From NCBI RefSeq assembly GCF_003340495.1, contig NZ_QASA01000001.1:4030001-4094000 (forward strand): a stretch of 64,000 bases of DNA. The letters are read 5' to 3'. Each line of letters opens with the position of its first letter. Position 1 is the first letter of the stretch. This stretch comes from Adhaeribacter pallidiroseus. GTDB lineage: Bacteria > Bacteroidota > Bacteroidia > Cytophagales > Hymenobacteraceae. Below are positions 23,992-34,460 of the stretch, in pieces. The notes under the pieces are model-generated. The model was given only the letters and a program-made list of their open reading frames with translations. It had not been told where the DNA came from and made no database searches. The position numbers were made by a program, and so were the translations under genes.

Positions 23992-24460
23992 ATTTATTTT
24001 ATTTAAAATCCTAAAATTTAATTTTTTAACTTCTATAAAAAGTAGCTTTTCCTAAGTTTATCACCTTGCTTGTTTGCGTTTATATACCCCATCCTAAATT
24101 TTTAACAAAGTATTTTATTATCTAATCTGATTTTAAATAGATTAGATTTGGCTTTACCCCACCTTATCTTATTTTATTACTACTTTACCAGTTCTCTACA
24201 ACTTATTAATTTGTATTATTCCGGGTAACTTGTATACTAAAATTTAATTCTGTTTAGCAGTAATACGGATTTAAGGTTAAGTCTTTTTACGTAAAAAGGC
24301 AATTAATAATGCAAAATTTCGATATATGCAATATCTTTTTAAAAAATCTTGCGTATTGTGGTTATGTAAGCAAAACCCTTATTGCTGATTAGCTTTCGTT
24401 GAAAATTTCTTAATAAATTTCAAATTTATTTAAATGACAAAATAAGTGCACGTTACCTCT
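23992..24460. other. 469-bp AT-rich region upstream of the sugar cluster
   Basis: No coding potential is visible. It contains a 9-bp inverted repeat (24120-24128 with 24139-24147) with a 10-base spacer and no following U-tract, and a short palindrome TTTTTACGTAAAAA near 24284. Either could be a regulatory site. The promoter of the three-gene sugar cluster should be here; TAGCTTTC at 24390-24397 is one base off the -7 consensus, without a good -33 box. Confidence 0.45.
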
Positions 24461-25684
24461 ATGCTAAAATCTGACCTGAACAGCTCTTTAACTCCTGAAG
24501 CAACAACCCAAGCCCTCGATCTTCAATCCAGTGCACCAAATGCATCCGATACACTGGATAACTTTATTCAAGCAATGCCCGCTATTGTTTGTTTATCGCA
24601 TTTACGCTGGGACTTTGTGTATCAGCGGCCCCAACATTTGCTTTCGCGCTTTGCCAAGCACAGCCGGTTATTCTTTTTTGAAGAACCTTATTTTTACGAT
24701 GGCGCGCAGCCCCGTTTGGATATAAGCCTCCGCGACCCGAACGTACATATTGTGGTAGCCCATTTACCGCATGGTTTAACCCCGCAAGAATCTGACGCTA
24801 TTCAGATTGAATTAGTAAACAATTTTATTAAAGAGCAGCACCTGAACGATTATGTAGCCTGGTATTACACGCCTATGGCACTGGAAGTATACGGCCATTT
24901 GCAACCGGCTTTAACCGTGTACGATTGCATGGACGAGCTTTCGGCTTTTAAAGGTGCTTCGCCGCGTTTACGCGAGTTAGAAGCCGAATTATTTAAAAAA
25001 GCCGACTTGGTATTTACCGGCGGCCATAGCATTTATGAATCAAAGCGCACCCAACATTCGGATGTATACGCTTTCCCGAGTAGCATCGACAAAGCCCATT
25101 TTGCTCAGGCACGTACTGGCTTAACGGAACCAGAAGATCAGAAGAATATACCGCATCCTCGCTTTGGGTTTTACGGCGTGGTAGACGAGCGCTTCGATAT
25201 TGAGTTATTACGCGAAGTAGCCGCTCAACGTCCGGAATGGCATTGGGTAATAATTGGCCCGGTAGTAAAAATAGATCCGGCTACATTACCCCACGCCGAC
25301 AACATTCATTACCTGGGCGGTAAAGATTACAAAGACCTCCCGCTGTACTTAAGTTCGTGGGATGTAGCCACTATGCCTTTTGCTATAAACGAATCTACTA
25401 AATATATAAGCCCCACTAAAACCCCGGAATATTTAGCTGGCAGCAAACCGGTTGTTTCTACTCCTATTCGGGATGTTGTTCGTCCTTACGGCGATCAGCA
25501 ATTAGTGCATATTGCATCTACTGCATCGGAGTTTGTGAACGCTTTAGAAAAAGCGCTATTGCAACGAAACGATCAGGAATGGTTGGCGCAAGTGGATGCT
25601 TTTTTAGCCAACATTTCCTGGGACCATACCTGGCAAAACATGGTAAGTCTTATGTATATTGCCTTAACTCAAAAATCAAAGTAA
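24461..25684 (+). CDS. glycosyltransferase, GT1/GT4-like
   Basis: A 407-residue protein (ATG at 24461; a GTG 15 bases upstream is also in frame). After a 30-residue Ser/Asn-rich lead it has SHLRWDFVYQRPQHLLSRFAK, typical of a group of GT-B glycosyltransferases, a second Rossmann half with FGFYGVVDERFDIELL, and the donor-binding part ESTKYISPTKTPEYLAGSKPVVSTP. Members transfer hexoses to surface glycans or lipids. Since UDP-galactopyranose mutase is the next gene, UDP-galactofuranose is a plausible donor, by inference. It is the first gene of the sugar cluster. Confidence 0.85.
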   Translation: MLKSDLNSSLTPEATTQALDLQSSAPNASDTLDNFIQAMPAIVCLSHLRWDFVYQRPQHLLSRFAKHSRLFFFEEPYFYDGAQPRLDISLRDPNVHIVVAHLPHGLTPQESDAIQIELVNNFIKEQHLNDYVAWYYTPMALEVYGHLQPALTVYDCMDELSAFKGASPRLRELEAELFKKADLVFTGGHSIYESKRTQHSDVYAFPSSIDKAHFAQARTGLTEPEDQKNIPHPRFGFYGVVDERFDIELLREVAAQRPEWHWVIIGPVVKIDPATLPHADNIHYLGGKDYKDLPLYLSSWDVATMPFAINESTKYISPTKTPEYLAGSKPVVSTPIRDVVRPYGDQQLVHIASTASEFVNALEKALLQRNDQEWLAQVDAFLANISWDHTWQNMVSLMYIALTQKSK

Positions 25685-25739
25685 GCTCCTTGCTTATAAC
25701 CTAAATAAATAAACGTTAAACTATTAAATTATAAATCAT

Positions 25740-26933
25740 ATGTTCGACTATCTTATTGTTGGAGCTGGCTTTGCCGGAAGTGTATTGGCCGAACGCCTTG
25801 CTACCCGTTCTAATAAAAAAATATTAATTATCGATAAAAGACCGCATATTGCCGGTAATGCATTCGATCATTATAACGAAGAAGGTATCCTGGTTCATAA
25901 ATACGGCCCACACATTTTCCACACAAACTCTAAAGATGTTTTTGATTATCTATCGCAATTTACCGAGTGGCGTTCGTACGAACACCGGGTATTAGCTAGT
26001 GTAGATGGTCAGTTAGTACCTATTCCGATTAACCTGGATACTATTAATAAATTGTATGGTTTAAATCTTACTTCTTTTGAACTCGAAGATTGGTTTGAGT
26101 CCGTAGCCGAGCAAGTACCCGTAGTGCGCACTTCCGAAGATGTAGTAGTAAGCAAAGTAGGTCGCGAATTATACGAAAAATTCTTCCGGAACTATACCCG
26201 CAAACAATGGGGTATGGACCCATCAGAATTAGATAAATCGGTAACTTCCCGGGTACCTACCCGCACCAACCGCGATAATCGGTATTTTACGGATATGTAT
26301 CAGGCTATGCCGGCCAATGGGTTCACGTCTATGTTCGAAAAAATGCTGGCTCACCCGAACATTAAGGTAATGCTGAATACGGATTATAAAGAAATCATTG
26401 ATGTAATTCCGTTTAAAGAAATGATTTTTACCGGACCGGTTGATGAGTACTTCGACTATAAATTTGGTAAACTGCCTTATCGTTCGCTCGACTTTAAACA
26501 CGAAACGTTAAATACCGAGACTTTCCTGCCAACTGCGGTAGTAAATTATCCGAACGAACACGCGTATACCCGTATTACGGAGTTTAAGTATTTAACTGGC
26601 CAGAAGCACCCCAAAACCAGCGTGGTATACGAATATCCGCAAGCTGATGGCGATCCGTACTACCCCGTACCGCGCCCAGAAAATGCTGAATTGTATAATA
26701 AATACAAGAAGTTAGCCGATCAAACACCTAATGTTCATTTTGTAGGCCGTTTAGCTACTTATAAATACTACAACATGGACCAGGTGGTAGCCCAGGCGCT
26801 AACACTATACAAGAAGTTAACCGAGAAAACAGAAGAAGATAAATCTATTGCAGAAATTGAGAAGATCGTTATTAAAGGTAAGTCTTTAAACGGATCTACT
26901 ATCAAAATCTCCAGTAAAAATGGCGATCATTGA
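25740..26933 (+). CDS. glf: UDP-galactopyranose mutase
   Basis: A 397-residue flavoenzyme that interconverts UDP-galactopyranose and UDP-galactofuranose. The FAD-binding motif IVGAGFAGSVLAERLA is at the N-terminus; the family signatures GPHIFHT, RKQWGMDPSELD and GRLATYKYYNMDQV are all present. It is slightly longer than E. coli Glf (about 367) by a C-terminal Lys/Ser-rich tail. Its last 14 bases overlap the start of the GH1-RmlD fusion gene, and it follows the glycosyltransferase gene by 55 bases, so the three form an operon for a galactofuranose-containing product. Confidence 0.96.
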   Translation: MFDYLIVGAGFAGSVLAERLATRSNKKILIIDKRPHIAGNAFDHYNEEGILVHKYGPHIFHTNSKDVFDYLSQFTEWRSYEHRVLASVDGQLVPIPINLDTINKLYGLNLTSFELEDWFESVAEQVPVVRTSEDVVVSKVGRELYEKFFRNYTRKQWGMDPSELDKSVTSRVPTRTNRDNRYFTDMYQAMPANGFTSMFEKMLAHPNIKVMLNTDYKEIIDVIPFKEMIFTGPVDEYFDYKFGKLPYRSLDFKHETLNTETFLPTAVVNYPNEHAYTRITEFKYLTGQKHPKTSVVYEYPQADGDPYYPVPRPENAELYNKYKKLADQTPNVHFVGRLATYKYYNMDQVVAQALTLYKKLTEKTEEDKSIAEIEKIVIKGKSLNGSTIKISSKNGDH

Positions 26934-29169
26934 TTTATGGGGCGGAGTTGAATGTAGTTGTAACCGGGTAGGAGAACAGTTCTTCGACCAGTTAAGCAGA
27001 AACGGTCATCTGAATCGGATTTCGGATCTGGACCTATTTGCCTCACTTGGAATTAAAAAATTACGCTATCCGGTACTTTGGGAGCAAGTCGCTCCTCAAA
27101 GTCTGGATCGGCCAGATTGGTTATGGCCGGATGAACGGTTACAACGTTTGCAGGAATTGCAAATTGAACCTATCGTGGGATTGGTACATCACGGCAGTGG
27201 TCCGGCCTACACCAGTTTAACCAGTAATAATTTTGCCCCTTTACTAGCCCAATATGCCGGCCTGGTAGCCGAACGCTACCCGTGGGTAAATTACTACACA
27301 CCCGTTAACGAACCACTTACCACGGCTCGTTTTAGCGGCCTTTACGGACTCTGGTACCCGCACGGTACTTCTGATCAGGATTTTGTACGGGCCTTACTCA
27401 ACCAGTTAAAAGGCACTAGACTAGCCATGCTGGCTATCCGACAGATAAACCCTAATGCTCAGTTAGTCCAAACCGAAGATTTAGGTGAAACGCATAGCAC
27501 CCATTCATTAGCTTACCAAGCTGCCTTCGAGAACGAACGCAGGTGGTTAAGCTATGATTTGCTATGTGGTAAGGTTACTCCGGAACATAATCTATATAAA
27601 TATTTAAAAAAATCGGGAGCAACTACCGAAGAATTACTGGAGTTTGTTGCATCTCCTTTGCCTCCGGATATTTTTGGTATTAACCATTATGTAACTAGTG
27701 AGCGGTACTTAGACGAGCATTTGTCCTTGTTTCCGTTGCATAGCCATGGCAGTAACGGGAAACATAAATACGCCGATGTGGAAGCAGTACGGGTTAAAGG
27801 TGTAGAACGTGCCGGGGTAAAAAGTTTGTTGCAGGAAGTCTGGCAACGCTACCAATCCCCCATTGCCATTACCGAAGCTCATTTATGCTGTACCCGCGAA
27901 GAACAAATGCGGTGGTTCATGGAAGTTTGGGAAGCAGCTACCGATTTAAAAAAAGCAGGTGTAAATTGCTTAGCTGTCACGGCCTGGGCTTTAATTGGCT
28001 CTTACGACTGGAATTCGCTGCTCACCCGGAGTAATGGCTTTTACGAAAGCGGCATATTTGATTTACGCATTGGTGATAAACCCTGGCCTACTGCTTTGGT
28101 GCCCATGCTGCAAAGTTTAAGTAGTACAGGGAATTACCAACACGATGTTTTAAAACATAAAGGTTGGTGGGACCGGGAAGAACGCTATGCCTACTATCAC
28201 GGTGAAAAGTACATTGCAAAACCAACCCACAAACCTATTCTGGACAAGAACCAACGGCCAATCCTCATTACCGGAGCTACTGGTACCCTGGGTAAAGCCT
28301 TTGGCAGAATATGTCAGGATCGTGGTTTGTCTTATGTTTTACTAAACCGCAAACAACTCGACATTACTAATCAGGCATCAGTAGAAGCCGCTATTATGCA
28401 ACATAACCCGTGGGCCGTTATAAATACAGCGGGTTATGTGCGGGTTGATGAAGCTGAAAAAGCACCGGAAGTATGCTACCGTGAAAATACAGCAGGTGCT
28501 ATTCTTTTAGCCGAAGCATGTAAGACGGCTGGTATTCAATTTTTAACTTTTTCTTCGGATTTAGTTTTTGATGGCGAGAAAGACGAACCTTACACCGAGG
28601 AAGATATCCCTAATCCACGGAACGTGTATGGGCGAAGTAAAGCCTTAGCCGAAAAGGAAATTTTTAAAATTTTACCAGAATCTCTGATTATCCGGACAAG
28701 CGCGTTTTTTAGTAGCTGGGATCGGTACAATTTTGTATATTTTGCCTTAAAATCTTTTCTGCAAGGTTTACCATTTGCAGCCGTTAATAATGTAAAAATT
28801 ACAGCTACCTACGTACCGGATTTGGTGCATACTTCCCTGAATTTGTTGATTGATCAGGCAAATGGCATTTGGCATGTAACGAACCAAGGATCTTATACCT
28901 GGGCAGAGTTAGCTCGATTAGTAGCGAATGTGGCCTTATTAAAAAATGTGGAGATAAAAGATCAACCGATAAGCTCTTTCCAGCTTCCGGCATACCGTCC
29001 TAAGAATTCTGTTCTGCAAAGTTCTAAAATCCGGTTAATGCCTACCATAGAAGATGCTTTGCACCGGTGTATACCGGCATTAATGCAGGAATTACTAAAA
29101 CATACCAAAACTTTAAAACCGGATTTGATAGACTCCGAAGAAAACCTGAGTAGAAAACTTAGTGGTTAA
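26920..29169 (+). CDS. fusion of GH1-type glycosidase and RmlD-type sugar reductase
   Basis: A 749-residue two-domain protein. Residues 1 to about 400 follow a glycoside hydrolase family 1 fold: acid/base Glu131 in TPVNEP and nucleophile Glu319 in AITEAH (the usual ITENG is changed after the Glu). Residues about 446-725 form an NAD(P)-binding domain of the dTDP-4-dehydrorhamnose reductase type: GATGTLG at 452-458, Ser546 in FSSDLVFDG, and Tyr570 with Lys574 in YGRSK. Both active sites look intact. It overlaps glf by 14 bases. The pairing of a glycan-cleaving domain with a deoxysugar reductase is unusual; a joint role in making or editing a galactofuranose/deoxysugar glycan is inference. No signal peptide is present. 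Confidence 0.9.
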   Translation: MAIIDLWGGVECSCNRVGEQFFDQLSRNGHLNRISDLDLFASLGIKKLRYPVLWEQVAPQSLDRPDWLWPDERLQRLQELQIEPIVGLVHHGSGPAYTSLTSNNFAPLLAQYAGLVAERYPWVNYYTPVNEPLTTARFSGLYGLWYPHGTSDQDFVRALLNQLKGTRLAMLAIRQINPNAQLVQTEDLGETHSTHSLAYQAAFENERRWLSYDLLCGKVTPEHNLYKYLKKSGATTEELLEFVASPLPPDIFGINHYVTSERYLDEHLSLFPLHSHGSNGKHKYADVEAVRVKGVERAGVKSLLQEVWQRYQSPIAITEAHLCCTREEQMRWFMEVWEAATDLKKAGVNCLAVTAWALIGSYDWNSLLTRSNGFYESGIFDLRIGDKPWPTALVPMLQSLSSTGNYQHDVLKHKGWWDREERYAYYHGEKYIAKPTHKPILDKNQRPILITGATGTLGKAFGRICQDRGLSYVLLNRKQLDITNQASVEAAIMQHNPWAVINTAGYVRVDEAEKAPEVCYRENTAGAILLAEACKTAGIQFLTFSSDLVFDGEKDEPYTEEDIPNPRNVYGRSKALAEKEIFKILPESLIIRTSAFFSSWDRYNFVYFALKSFLQGLPFAAVNNVKITATYVPDLVHTSLNLLIDQANGIWHVTNQGSYTWAELARLVANVALLKNVEIKDQPISSFQLPAYRPKNSVLQSSKIRLMPTIEDALHRCIPALMQELLKHTKTLKPDLIDSEENLSRKLSG

Positions 29170-29190
29170 AAGCAAAAAATTTTAAATGAA

Positions 29191-29223
29191 AGGCTATTCC
29201 TATTAAGGATAGCCTTTTTTGTT
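29191..29223 (+). terminator. terminator of the sugar cluster
   Basis: A 9-bp stem with one bulged T (AGGCTAT-CC with GGATAGCCT) and a 6-base loop, followed by TTTTTT, 22 bases after the fusion gene. Confidence 0.85.
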
Positions 29224-31976: not shown

Positions 31977-34437
<2,461 letters not shown>

Positions 34438-34460
34438 AAATCTAGATTTTTGCAAAAATA

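Follow-up and report, generated by a model that had tools for sequence, protein, structure and literature searches.

A GH1-RmlD fusion gene of Adhaeribacter pallidiroseus in a widely distributed, putative UDP-galactofuranose gene cassette

Introduction

The UDP-galactopyranose mutases (Glf) with solved structures include that of Deinococcus radiodurans, to which we take PDB entry 3hdq to correspond. Glycoside hydrolases of families 1 and 2 (GH1, GH2) act on beta-linkages, and the reductase RmlD has as a homologue MAT2B, a subunit of methionine adenosyltransferase. Here we describe a locus of Adhaeribacter pallidiroseus in which genes of such families stand together. It lies in a stretch of 64,000 nucleotides (RefSeq assembly GCF_003340495.1, contig NZ_QASA01000001.1, positions 4,030,001 to 4,094,000 of the forward strand), called the window below, and consists of a glycosyltransferase (GT) gene, glf and a gene for one long protein that joins a GH1-type domain to an RmlD-type domain. 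With moderate confidence we regard the locus as a copy of a conserved UDP-galactofuranose cassette, in which the GH1 domain would act on a galactose-type sugar and the reductase domain would be an accessory. The parts all belong to known families; new are their combination, their distribution and a possible stress control.

The glycosyltransferase and the mutase

The Glf of the window was 72.8% identical to the D. radiodurans gene product. It scored 407.9 bits against the UDP-galactopyranose mutase equivalog TIGR00031 (cut-off 303.75), and among the solved mutases it gave 641 bits to 3hdq and at most 298 bits to the others. On account of the identity to the D. radiodurans gene we strongly infer that the protein has mutase activity and would make UDP-galactofuranose. 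The first-pass annotation of this DNA had assigned the making of a galactofuranose donor, as one option, to the fusion protein, a task that the separate mutase would perform.

The GT has a predicted fold that resembles GT-B enzymes, for example the retaining MshA, and it stayed well below the cut-off of the equivalog for the teichuronic acid protein TuaH (NF047676, 71.2 bits versus 550). An alternative start, a GTG at 24446, is also possible. In seven of the fetched plasmid loci, which represent five genera, a single open reading frame (ORF) uninterrupted by a stop encodes GT and Glf together; these are the loci of Gloeothece, Azospirillum brasilense, Sphingomonas hankookensis and Sphingobium and three of Sinorhizobium. 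Since the two proteins have been fused repeatedly, the GT probably uses UDP-galactofuranose.

Of 150 genomes searched from the window's own family, 120 carry the GT and 119 carry glf, with 118 having both genes. The pair of GH1 and RmlD, as a fusion or as separate genes, was present in 65 of these genomes, where it was accompanied by the GT in 65/65 and by glf in 64/65 (Fisher p 3e-9 and 4e-8, respectively, uncorrected for kinship). This count bears out the tie to both genes that had been proposed from the window alone. GT and glf were both present without a GH1-RmlD match (E 1e-90) in 54 of the 150 genomes. The core of the cassette is the GT plus glf. In three sets of loci the GT was near the GH1 gene in 10/14, 9/12 and 12/20, and glf in 8, 7 and 11, where some loci are short and two Deinococcus plasmids carry glf further off.

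Related arrangements were observed in other bacteria. Behind the GT-glf pair of Azospirillum and Skermanella stand a very distant GH1-like gene and a gene for an MsbA-like exporter. Loci L106, L110, L111, L118 and L022 combine GT-glf with an MsbA-related ABC exporter and with a beta-glucosidase-like gene that is very diverged (in L118 the exporter cluster was assigned by annotation and position only), and it is possible that this is a sister cassette with an export step. In Aureimonas and Sinorhizobium (L115, L119) the GT alone, or GT-glf, stands in operons with very large glycosyltransferase genes.

The fusion protein and its GH1 domain

The coordinates of the three genes and of their features are collected in Table 1. 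The fusion gene overlaps glf by 14 bases, and its reading frame has no internal stop. In Pfam searches both domains of the protein were above the cut-offs, GH1 with 49.3 bits (residues 35-370, cut-off 22.6) and RmlD (RmlD_sub_bind) with 206.3 bits (residues 448-707, cut-off 27). An AlphaFold2 model built with an alignment of 23 sequences was confident for both domains (mean pLDDT 90.6, pTM 0.90), and Foldseek matched the respective parts of the model to GH1 and RmlD enzymes. The first barrel strand lies at the very N-terminus and no signal peptide was seen by eye, so a cytoplasmic protein is predicted. The 749-residue GH1-RmlD fusion, its overlap with glf, its place behind a GT, the two active sites with the residues named for them (E131 in NEP, E319 in ITEAH, GATGTLG, Y570, K574) and the cytoplasmic location had all been noted in the first-pass annotation, and all of them agree with our analysis; both sites are intact.

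Table 1. Features of the cassette, with positions counted in the window
Feature	Position	Strand	Basis
GT-B (GT4-like) glycosyltransferase, 407 aa	24461..25684	+	PF13692, 33.9 bits
glf, UDP-galactopyranose mutase, 397 aa, Deinococcus radiodurans type	25740..26933	+	TIGR00031
GH1-RmlD two-domain protein, 749 aa	26920..29169	+	ORF, Pfam, predicted structure
GH1-type (beta/alpha)8 domain, about residues 1-424	26920..28191	+	Pfam, Foldseek, residue conservation, alignment to solved GH1
GH1 acid/base E131	27310-27312	+	NEP motif
GH1 nucleophile E319	27874-27876	+	ITEAH motif
RmlD-type SDR (short-chain dehydrogenase/reductase) domain, about residues 446-729	28255..29106	+	PF04321
GATGTLG, residues 452-458	28273-28293	+	SDR motif of RmlD domain
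RmlD triad, S545/S546, Y570, K574	Y570 28627-28629; K574 28639-28641	+	
Terminator-like hairpin 3' of the fusion gene	29188..29218	+	12 pairs, then T-rich tail; consensus match only

Terminator-like matches were fewer in the region than expected from shuffles (3 versus 5.4).

Conservation was determined in 65 different GH1 sequences, a set that contains many close relatives and from which the interrupted genes of L054 and L091 were left out. E319 was kept in 65/65 and E131 in 64/65, the exception being a diverged second copy, and with such conservation the intact site is not a matter of chance. The ITEAH motif had been regarded as an altered motif that hints at a changed substrate or a transglycosylase-like role. 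It turned out that TE-x-H is the family's own form, with His at position 321 in 62/65. The residues E11, R16, H90, H91, R137, H148, D187, R207, R208, Y257, R262, W356 and W364 were invariant in all 65 sequences.

The pocket departs from ordinary GH1 enzymes at another position. The Glu that binds the sugar there (O4/O6, the outer hydroxyls), which we take to be E405, before the last Trp, corresponds to position 363, where Asp was found in 55 sequences, Gly in 7, Glu in 2 and Asn in 1. At the place of the Gln that ends the first barrel strand (Q20), N15 seems to stand when judged by eye, at a variable position (Asn in 38/65); four of the five alignments start past this strand and the fifth is seemingly out of register. 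The domain also scored far below the GH1 beta-glucosidase equivalog TIGR03356 (57.4 bits versus 478.5). Taken from the residues, the barrel looks like an intact retaining enzyme with a pocket of its own, unlike the standard beta-glucosidases. A GH1 clade with its own invariant pocket residues may be useful to enzymologists who seek new substrate specificities.

Additional GH1-type genes were found. Four loci of the own family (L090-L093) are second GH1-RmlD copies that have diverged, have a longer linker and do not lie near GT and glf; the L090 copy has Lys in place of the acid/base Glu (NKP), and in that of L091 a stop interrupts the gene. A second GH1-like gene of about 30% identity lies beside the fusion gene in L014 (10125-11330), L016 (8239-9477) and L017 (5265-6416), and a related one is found elsewhere in the window's genome at 837440.

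The RmlD domain

The Ser/Thr-Tyr-Lys triad was kept in 55 of 59 RmlD domains (S546, Y570 and K574 in the window), and was lost in four from different lineages (L101, L025, L051, L022). The domain narrowly missed the RmlD equivalog TIGR01214, with 207.4 bits versus 224.05. Another RmlD-type gene of the same genome, at 5783014, has a slightly higher Pfam score (219 versus 209 bits).

Across 46 loci, six GH1 members adjoining GT and glf were without a full RmlD domain. The ORFs of L023, L024 and L052 carry none, the first two having been searched by tblastn only. Those of L053, L055 and L056 have a tail, some 130-150 residues long, where remnants of the start and end of RmlD were read by eye; neither a significant BLAST match nor a Pfam RmlD match was obtained for these tails. 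As the domain has been lost or has decayed in several lineages, it is not essential to the core.

These losses bear on the proposal that the RmlD domain is non-enzymatic here and serves as a structural or NADP-sensing part, as in MAT2B. MAT2B is among the matches, and the four members that lost the triad in separate lineages yet keep the domain, and the possible shrunken remnants in three members fit the same idea. Against it, the triad persists in the great majority of domains and reductases are by far the closest matches, and we regard a non-enzymatic role as possible, albeit on the unlikely side.

Distribution, fusion and fission

Homologues of the fusion protein at 42-56% identity were detected in eight phyla. 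When species genomes were scanned, 14 loci were obtained. They belong to Chloroflexota, Planctomycetota, Bacteroidota, Gemmatimonadota, Pseudomonadota and Myxococcota; 11 of them had one ORF (two with a broken reductase triad), one was split and two had GH1 only. Among 72,556 plasmid records 651 gave a match, and 19 covered 80% or more of the protein, which extends the range to a cyanobacterium and Deinococcus; 14 of the 19 annotate the stretch as 'family 1 glycosylhydrolase', alone or in part. Both domains were full-length in only 3 of 148 genomes sampled from the phylum, the window's genome included, and of 190 genomes sampled from the alphaproteobacterial class only two had GH1-RmlD (E 1e-80), the centre genome itself included. 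The spread over phyla together with these low counts indicates that the fusion is old, broad and patchy. It is thus no one-off, and uniqueness of the fusion was rejected on the same grounds of homologues in many phyla. A literature search found no description of the fusion or of the cassette. The protein is widespread, as an objection foreseen in the first-pass annotation had it, but, as far as this search shows, not already characterised.

In 19 genomes of the own family the domains are encoded by separate genes. An in-frame stop, with all three stop codons represented and an ATG within a few codons, was found in 11 of them, which largely corresponds to the other objection foreseen, separate genes with a stop between them. 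In the remaining eight the second gene is in another frame (five), further apart (one) or separated by a gene for a major facilitator superfamily (MFS) transporter (L088 and L089). In a tree of the 65 GH1 sequences, made by a quick method and without the two interrupted genes, the 19 split members formed one supported clade nested within the fused ones; by parsimony the split in the own family is therefore secondary, and the fusion has been taken apart in this clade. A split pair in an alphaproteobacterial metagenome-assembled genome (L019) was placed apart from it.

The first-pass annotation had proposed that one polypeptide both makes a sugar donor and acts on the glycan. In the fullest form of this proposal, the RmlD domain makes a deoxysugar donor, the GH1 domain trims or transfers the resulting glycan, and the fusion serves channelling. 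The two domains, the intact sites in the window protein and the tie to glf and GT stood up, and the idea gains from the age of the fusion and its retention in many phyla, from the confident prediction of the domain arrangement and from the split genes, which remain neighbours in 17/19 genomes. The need for one polypeptide for two consecutive steps was not supported: a whole clade has the domains as separate ORFs, twice with a transporter gene in between, the SDR triad is broken in 4/59, and in six GH1 members next to GT and glf no more than a remnant of RmlD is left. Necessity of the fusion was rejected in view of these split, decayed and RmlD-less members. Moreover, an rmlA-like gene was seen only near the GT-glf pair of D. 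ficus (rmlB and rmlC were not sought). Taken together, we consider a bifunctional enzyme of this kind distinctly unlikely.

Galactose genes and other neighbours

Of 26 loci from genome contigs and plasmids, counted within the fetched stretch, seven carry galK, four carry galT and seven carry a GH2 gene. Pfam agreed for five galK, two galT and five GH2 proteins, one of these from L101. In Labilithrix (L021) the genes GT-glf-GH2-galT-galK-GH1/RmlD are consecutive on one strand. An aldose 1-epimerase gene follows the fusion gene in Flaviaesturariibacter and lies near a copy in Azospirillum thermophilum. Because the loci span several phyla, we judge it unlikely that this clustering of galactose genes is due to chance alone. 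Two of the neighbouring GH2 proteins were compared with solved chains. Both matched 7xyr and 7sf2 first and beta-D-galactofuranosidase 2 next (232 and 254 bits), whereas the chains after it scored only 107 and 94 bits.

Such neighbours could also mark a galactoside utilisation operon, with import, cleavage by GH1 and GH2 and the Leloir pathway, to which Glf and the GT would be a side branch. Sugar and MFS transporters and a porin near some copies, besides galM, galK, galT and GH2, would suit it. The catabolic genes, however, are the variable part of the cassette and the GT and Glf the constant one, found by themselves in the 54 family genomes mentioned above, and the fetched D. radiodurans stretch has no GH1-RmlD gene. 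We therefore consider a utilisation operon very improbable.

The same genes weigh on whether the GH1 domain hydrolyses at all. SFR2 is a galactolipid galactosyltransferase of plants, and the GH1 domain might in a similar way be a transglycosylase, with a galactosyl glycolipid or glycoside as its product. That it appears cytosolic and is conserved with a biosynthetic GT and a mutase is in line with this, as are the stress-type promoter motifs of Alphaproteobacteria (see below) and the MsbA-like exporter behind the very distant GH1-like gene of Azospirillum and Skermanella. The GH2, galK, galT and galM genes near some copies point instead to release and re-use of free galactose, and a transglycosylase of this type seems unlikely to us.

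Separately, we observed that carA (carbamoyl-phosphate synthase small subunit, identified by eye; window 33335-34455, minus strand) appears frameshifted. The frame breaks off at 33493, and what should be the C-terminal part is read in another frame (33335-33562), which may be an assembly error.

Promoter motifs and a possible link to stress

The motif of the general stress regulator EcfG in Sphingomonas is given as GGAAC-N17-20-GTT (PMC6599016). We searched for GGAAC-N16-20-GTT within 300 bases of gene starts, in the first scan also 30 bases into the gene. Motifs of this type occurred in 9/20 regions as compared to 3.1% of random windows, and the strict form in 4/20 as compared to 0.7%, seemingly a strong enrichment. 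It shrank considerably when the upstream regions of other annotated leader genes served as controls: with all annotated cassette leaders of 11 loci the motif was found in 5/19 versus 8/97 other leaders (p 0.04), and the strict form in 2/19 versus 1/97 (p 0.07). When only the gene that opens the GT unit was counted, in 12 loci, the numbers were 8/12 versus 8/97, and 4/12 versus 1/97 for the strict form; this restriction to the first gene was chosen after the initial scan, and L019, L022 and one start (L054) are outside the control table.

In fresh loci the motif was present in 6/8 as compared to 8/44 controls (p 0.003), in the loose form only and none strict. This set includes three similar Sinorhizobium and two Mesorhizobium loci, and counted by hand three of its five genera have the motif; for L115 the first operon gene was used, and four further cassette leaders, two with the motif, were excluded from both counts. 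Pooled, the loose motif preceded the unit in 14/20 alphaproteobacterial loci versus 16/141 other leader genes. Judged by these motifs, the general stress response seems to include the alphaproteobacterial cassette, a link for which the support is fair but not final.

Plasmid neighbours resembling stress genes were catalases, ferritin-like, KGG and PRC-barrel proteins, which were not counted. On a Mesorhizobium plasmid (L053) loose EcfG-type motifs were also seen before five other genes, possibly a general-stress island. The radiation/desiccation-response motif was not found before the Deinococcus genes; even the best matches in six regions had 6-8 mismatches, which lies inside the background of 6-10.

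A bolder explanation would make the cassette a dedicated and widely shared stress pathway, in which a galactofuranose conjugate, such as a glycolipid or a protective solute, is made and turned over in bacteria that endure drying and radiation, with the GH1 domain as galactofuranosidase or trans-galactofuranosylase. To our knowledge, a GH1 domain active on galactofuranose would be the first furanosidase in family GH1. We give this explanation little probability.

Proposed pathway

In the UDP-galactofuranose cassette as we propose it, Glf would, as its family strongly suggests, convert UDP-galactopyranose to UDP-galactofuranose, and the GT would transfer galactofuranose to an acceptor. The acceptor is perhaps a small molecule or a lipid, since the cassette core has no polymerase or flippase. 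With less certainty, the GH1 domain would be a retaining beta-glycosidase or transglycosidase of the cytosol, with a galactoside or a galactofuranoside as its substrate, and would so feed galactose into the pathway or recycle it, and the GH2 protein of some other copies may do likewise. Galactose could be taken into UDP-galactose or returned to it via galM, galK and galT, which adjoin only some copies. Least certain is the last step, in which the RmlD domain may be an accessory NAD(P)H-dependent reductase.

Several observations weigh against this proposal. The genes galK, galT and galM were found in 0/20 fetched Bacteroidota loci and GH2 in 1/20, and none of the four is in the window's cassette, a GH2 homologue (44%) and galK being located elsewhere in the genome. 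The closest solved relative of the GH2 proteins (7xyr) is labelled beta-glucuronidase. The stress evidence comes from copies other than that of the window. GT and glf were both distant from the GH1 gene in 3/14, 3/12 and 8/20 loci of the three sets, the eight of the third set being second or displaced copies. Eight genomes and five plasmid records were asked for a mutase. At E 1e-30 no glf was found in Roseisolibacter (G297) and a Gemmatimonadetes metagenome-assembled genome (G298), both with GT and fusion; two further genomes (G299, G300) carry only a mutase of 38-39% identity, and one of the plasmid records was without glf. The retaining fold modelled for the GT predicts alpha-galactofuranose, whereas GH1 and GH2 take beta-links, and because of this mismatch the glycosidases may have as their target not the GT product but an incoming galactoside or another linkage.

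Comparison with known systems

One of the closest described systems is the EcfG general stress regulon, whose motif (PMC6599016) resembles the sites before the GT in Alphaproteobacteria. The likeness lies in the promoter motif and applies to the alphaproteobacterial copies, not to that of the window. The GH2 beta-D-galactofuranosidase (9j6n, 9j6m) is a close relative of the GH2 proteins that accompany some copies elsewhere, although 7xyr and 7sf2 fit these proteins better, and it has no counterpart beside the window copy.

For the reductase domain, the dTDP-4-dehydrorhamnose reductases (3sc6, 1vl0, 4wpg, 1kbz) are the closest solved chains, and share the SDR motif and the triad with it. Identity to 1vl0, 3sc6 and 4wpg is 28-31%, with a TM-score of 0.87-0.92 by target length. 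The window domain differs from these enzymes in being joined to GH1 and in falling below the equivalog cut-off. The GH1 beta-glucosidases align with the window domain in fold, in the NEP and TE motifs, in the Asn and Tyr of NxY and in the two Trp of the W...W region. The window domain reaches only 49 bits to Pfam GH1, its family has Asp, Gly, Glu or Asn at the position of E405, and E11, R16, H91, R137 and H148 are invariants of its own.

The nearest solved match of the Glf is the D. radiodurans mutase (PDB 3hdq, 3hdy, 3he3, 3mj4). A literature search on galactofuranose in Deinococcus found nothing, and the partner genes suggest roles for this sugar in bacteria where our search found none described. 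In D. radiodurans the GH1-RmlD gene is absent from the fetched stretch around GT-glf, unlike in the window, whereas the same GT lies directly upstream of the mutase gene in both. The mutase known from these structures belongs to a portable gene pair or cassette with hosts in Deinococcus, a cyanobacterium, rhizobia, Azospirillum, Bacteroidota and others.

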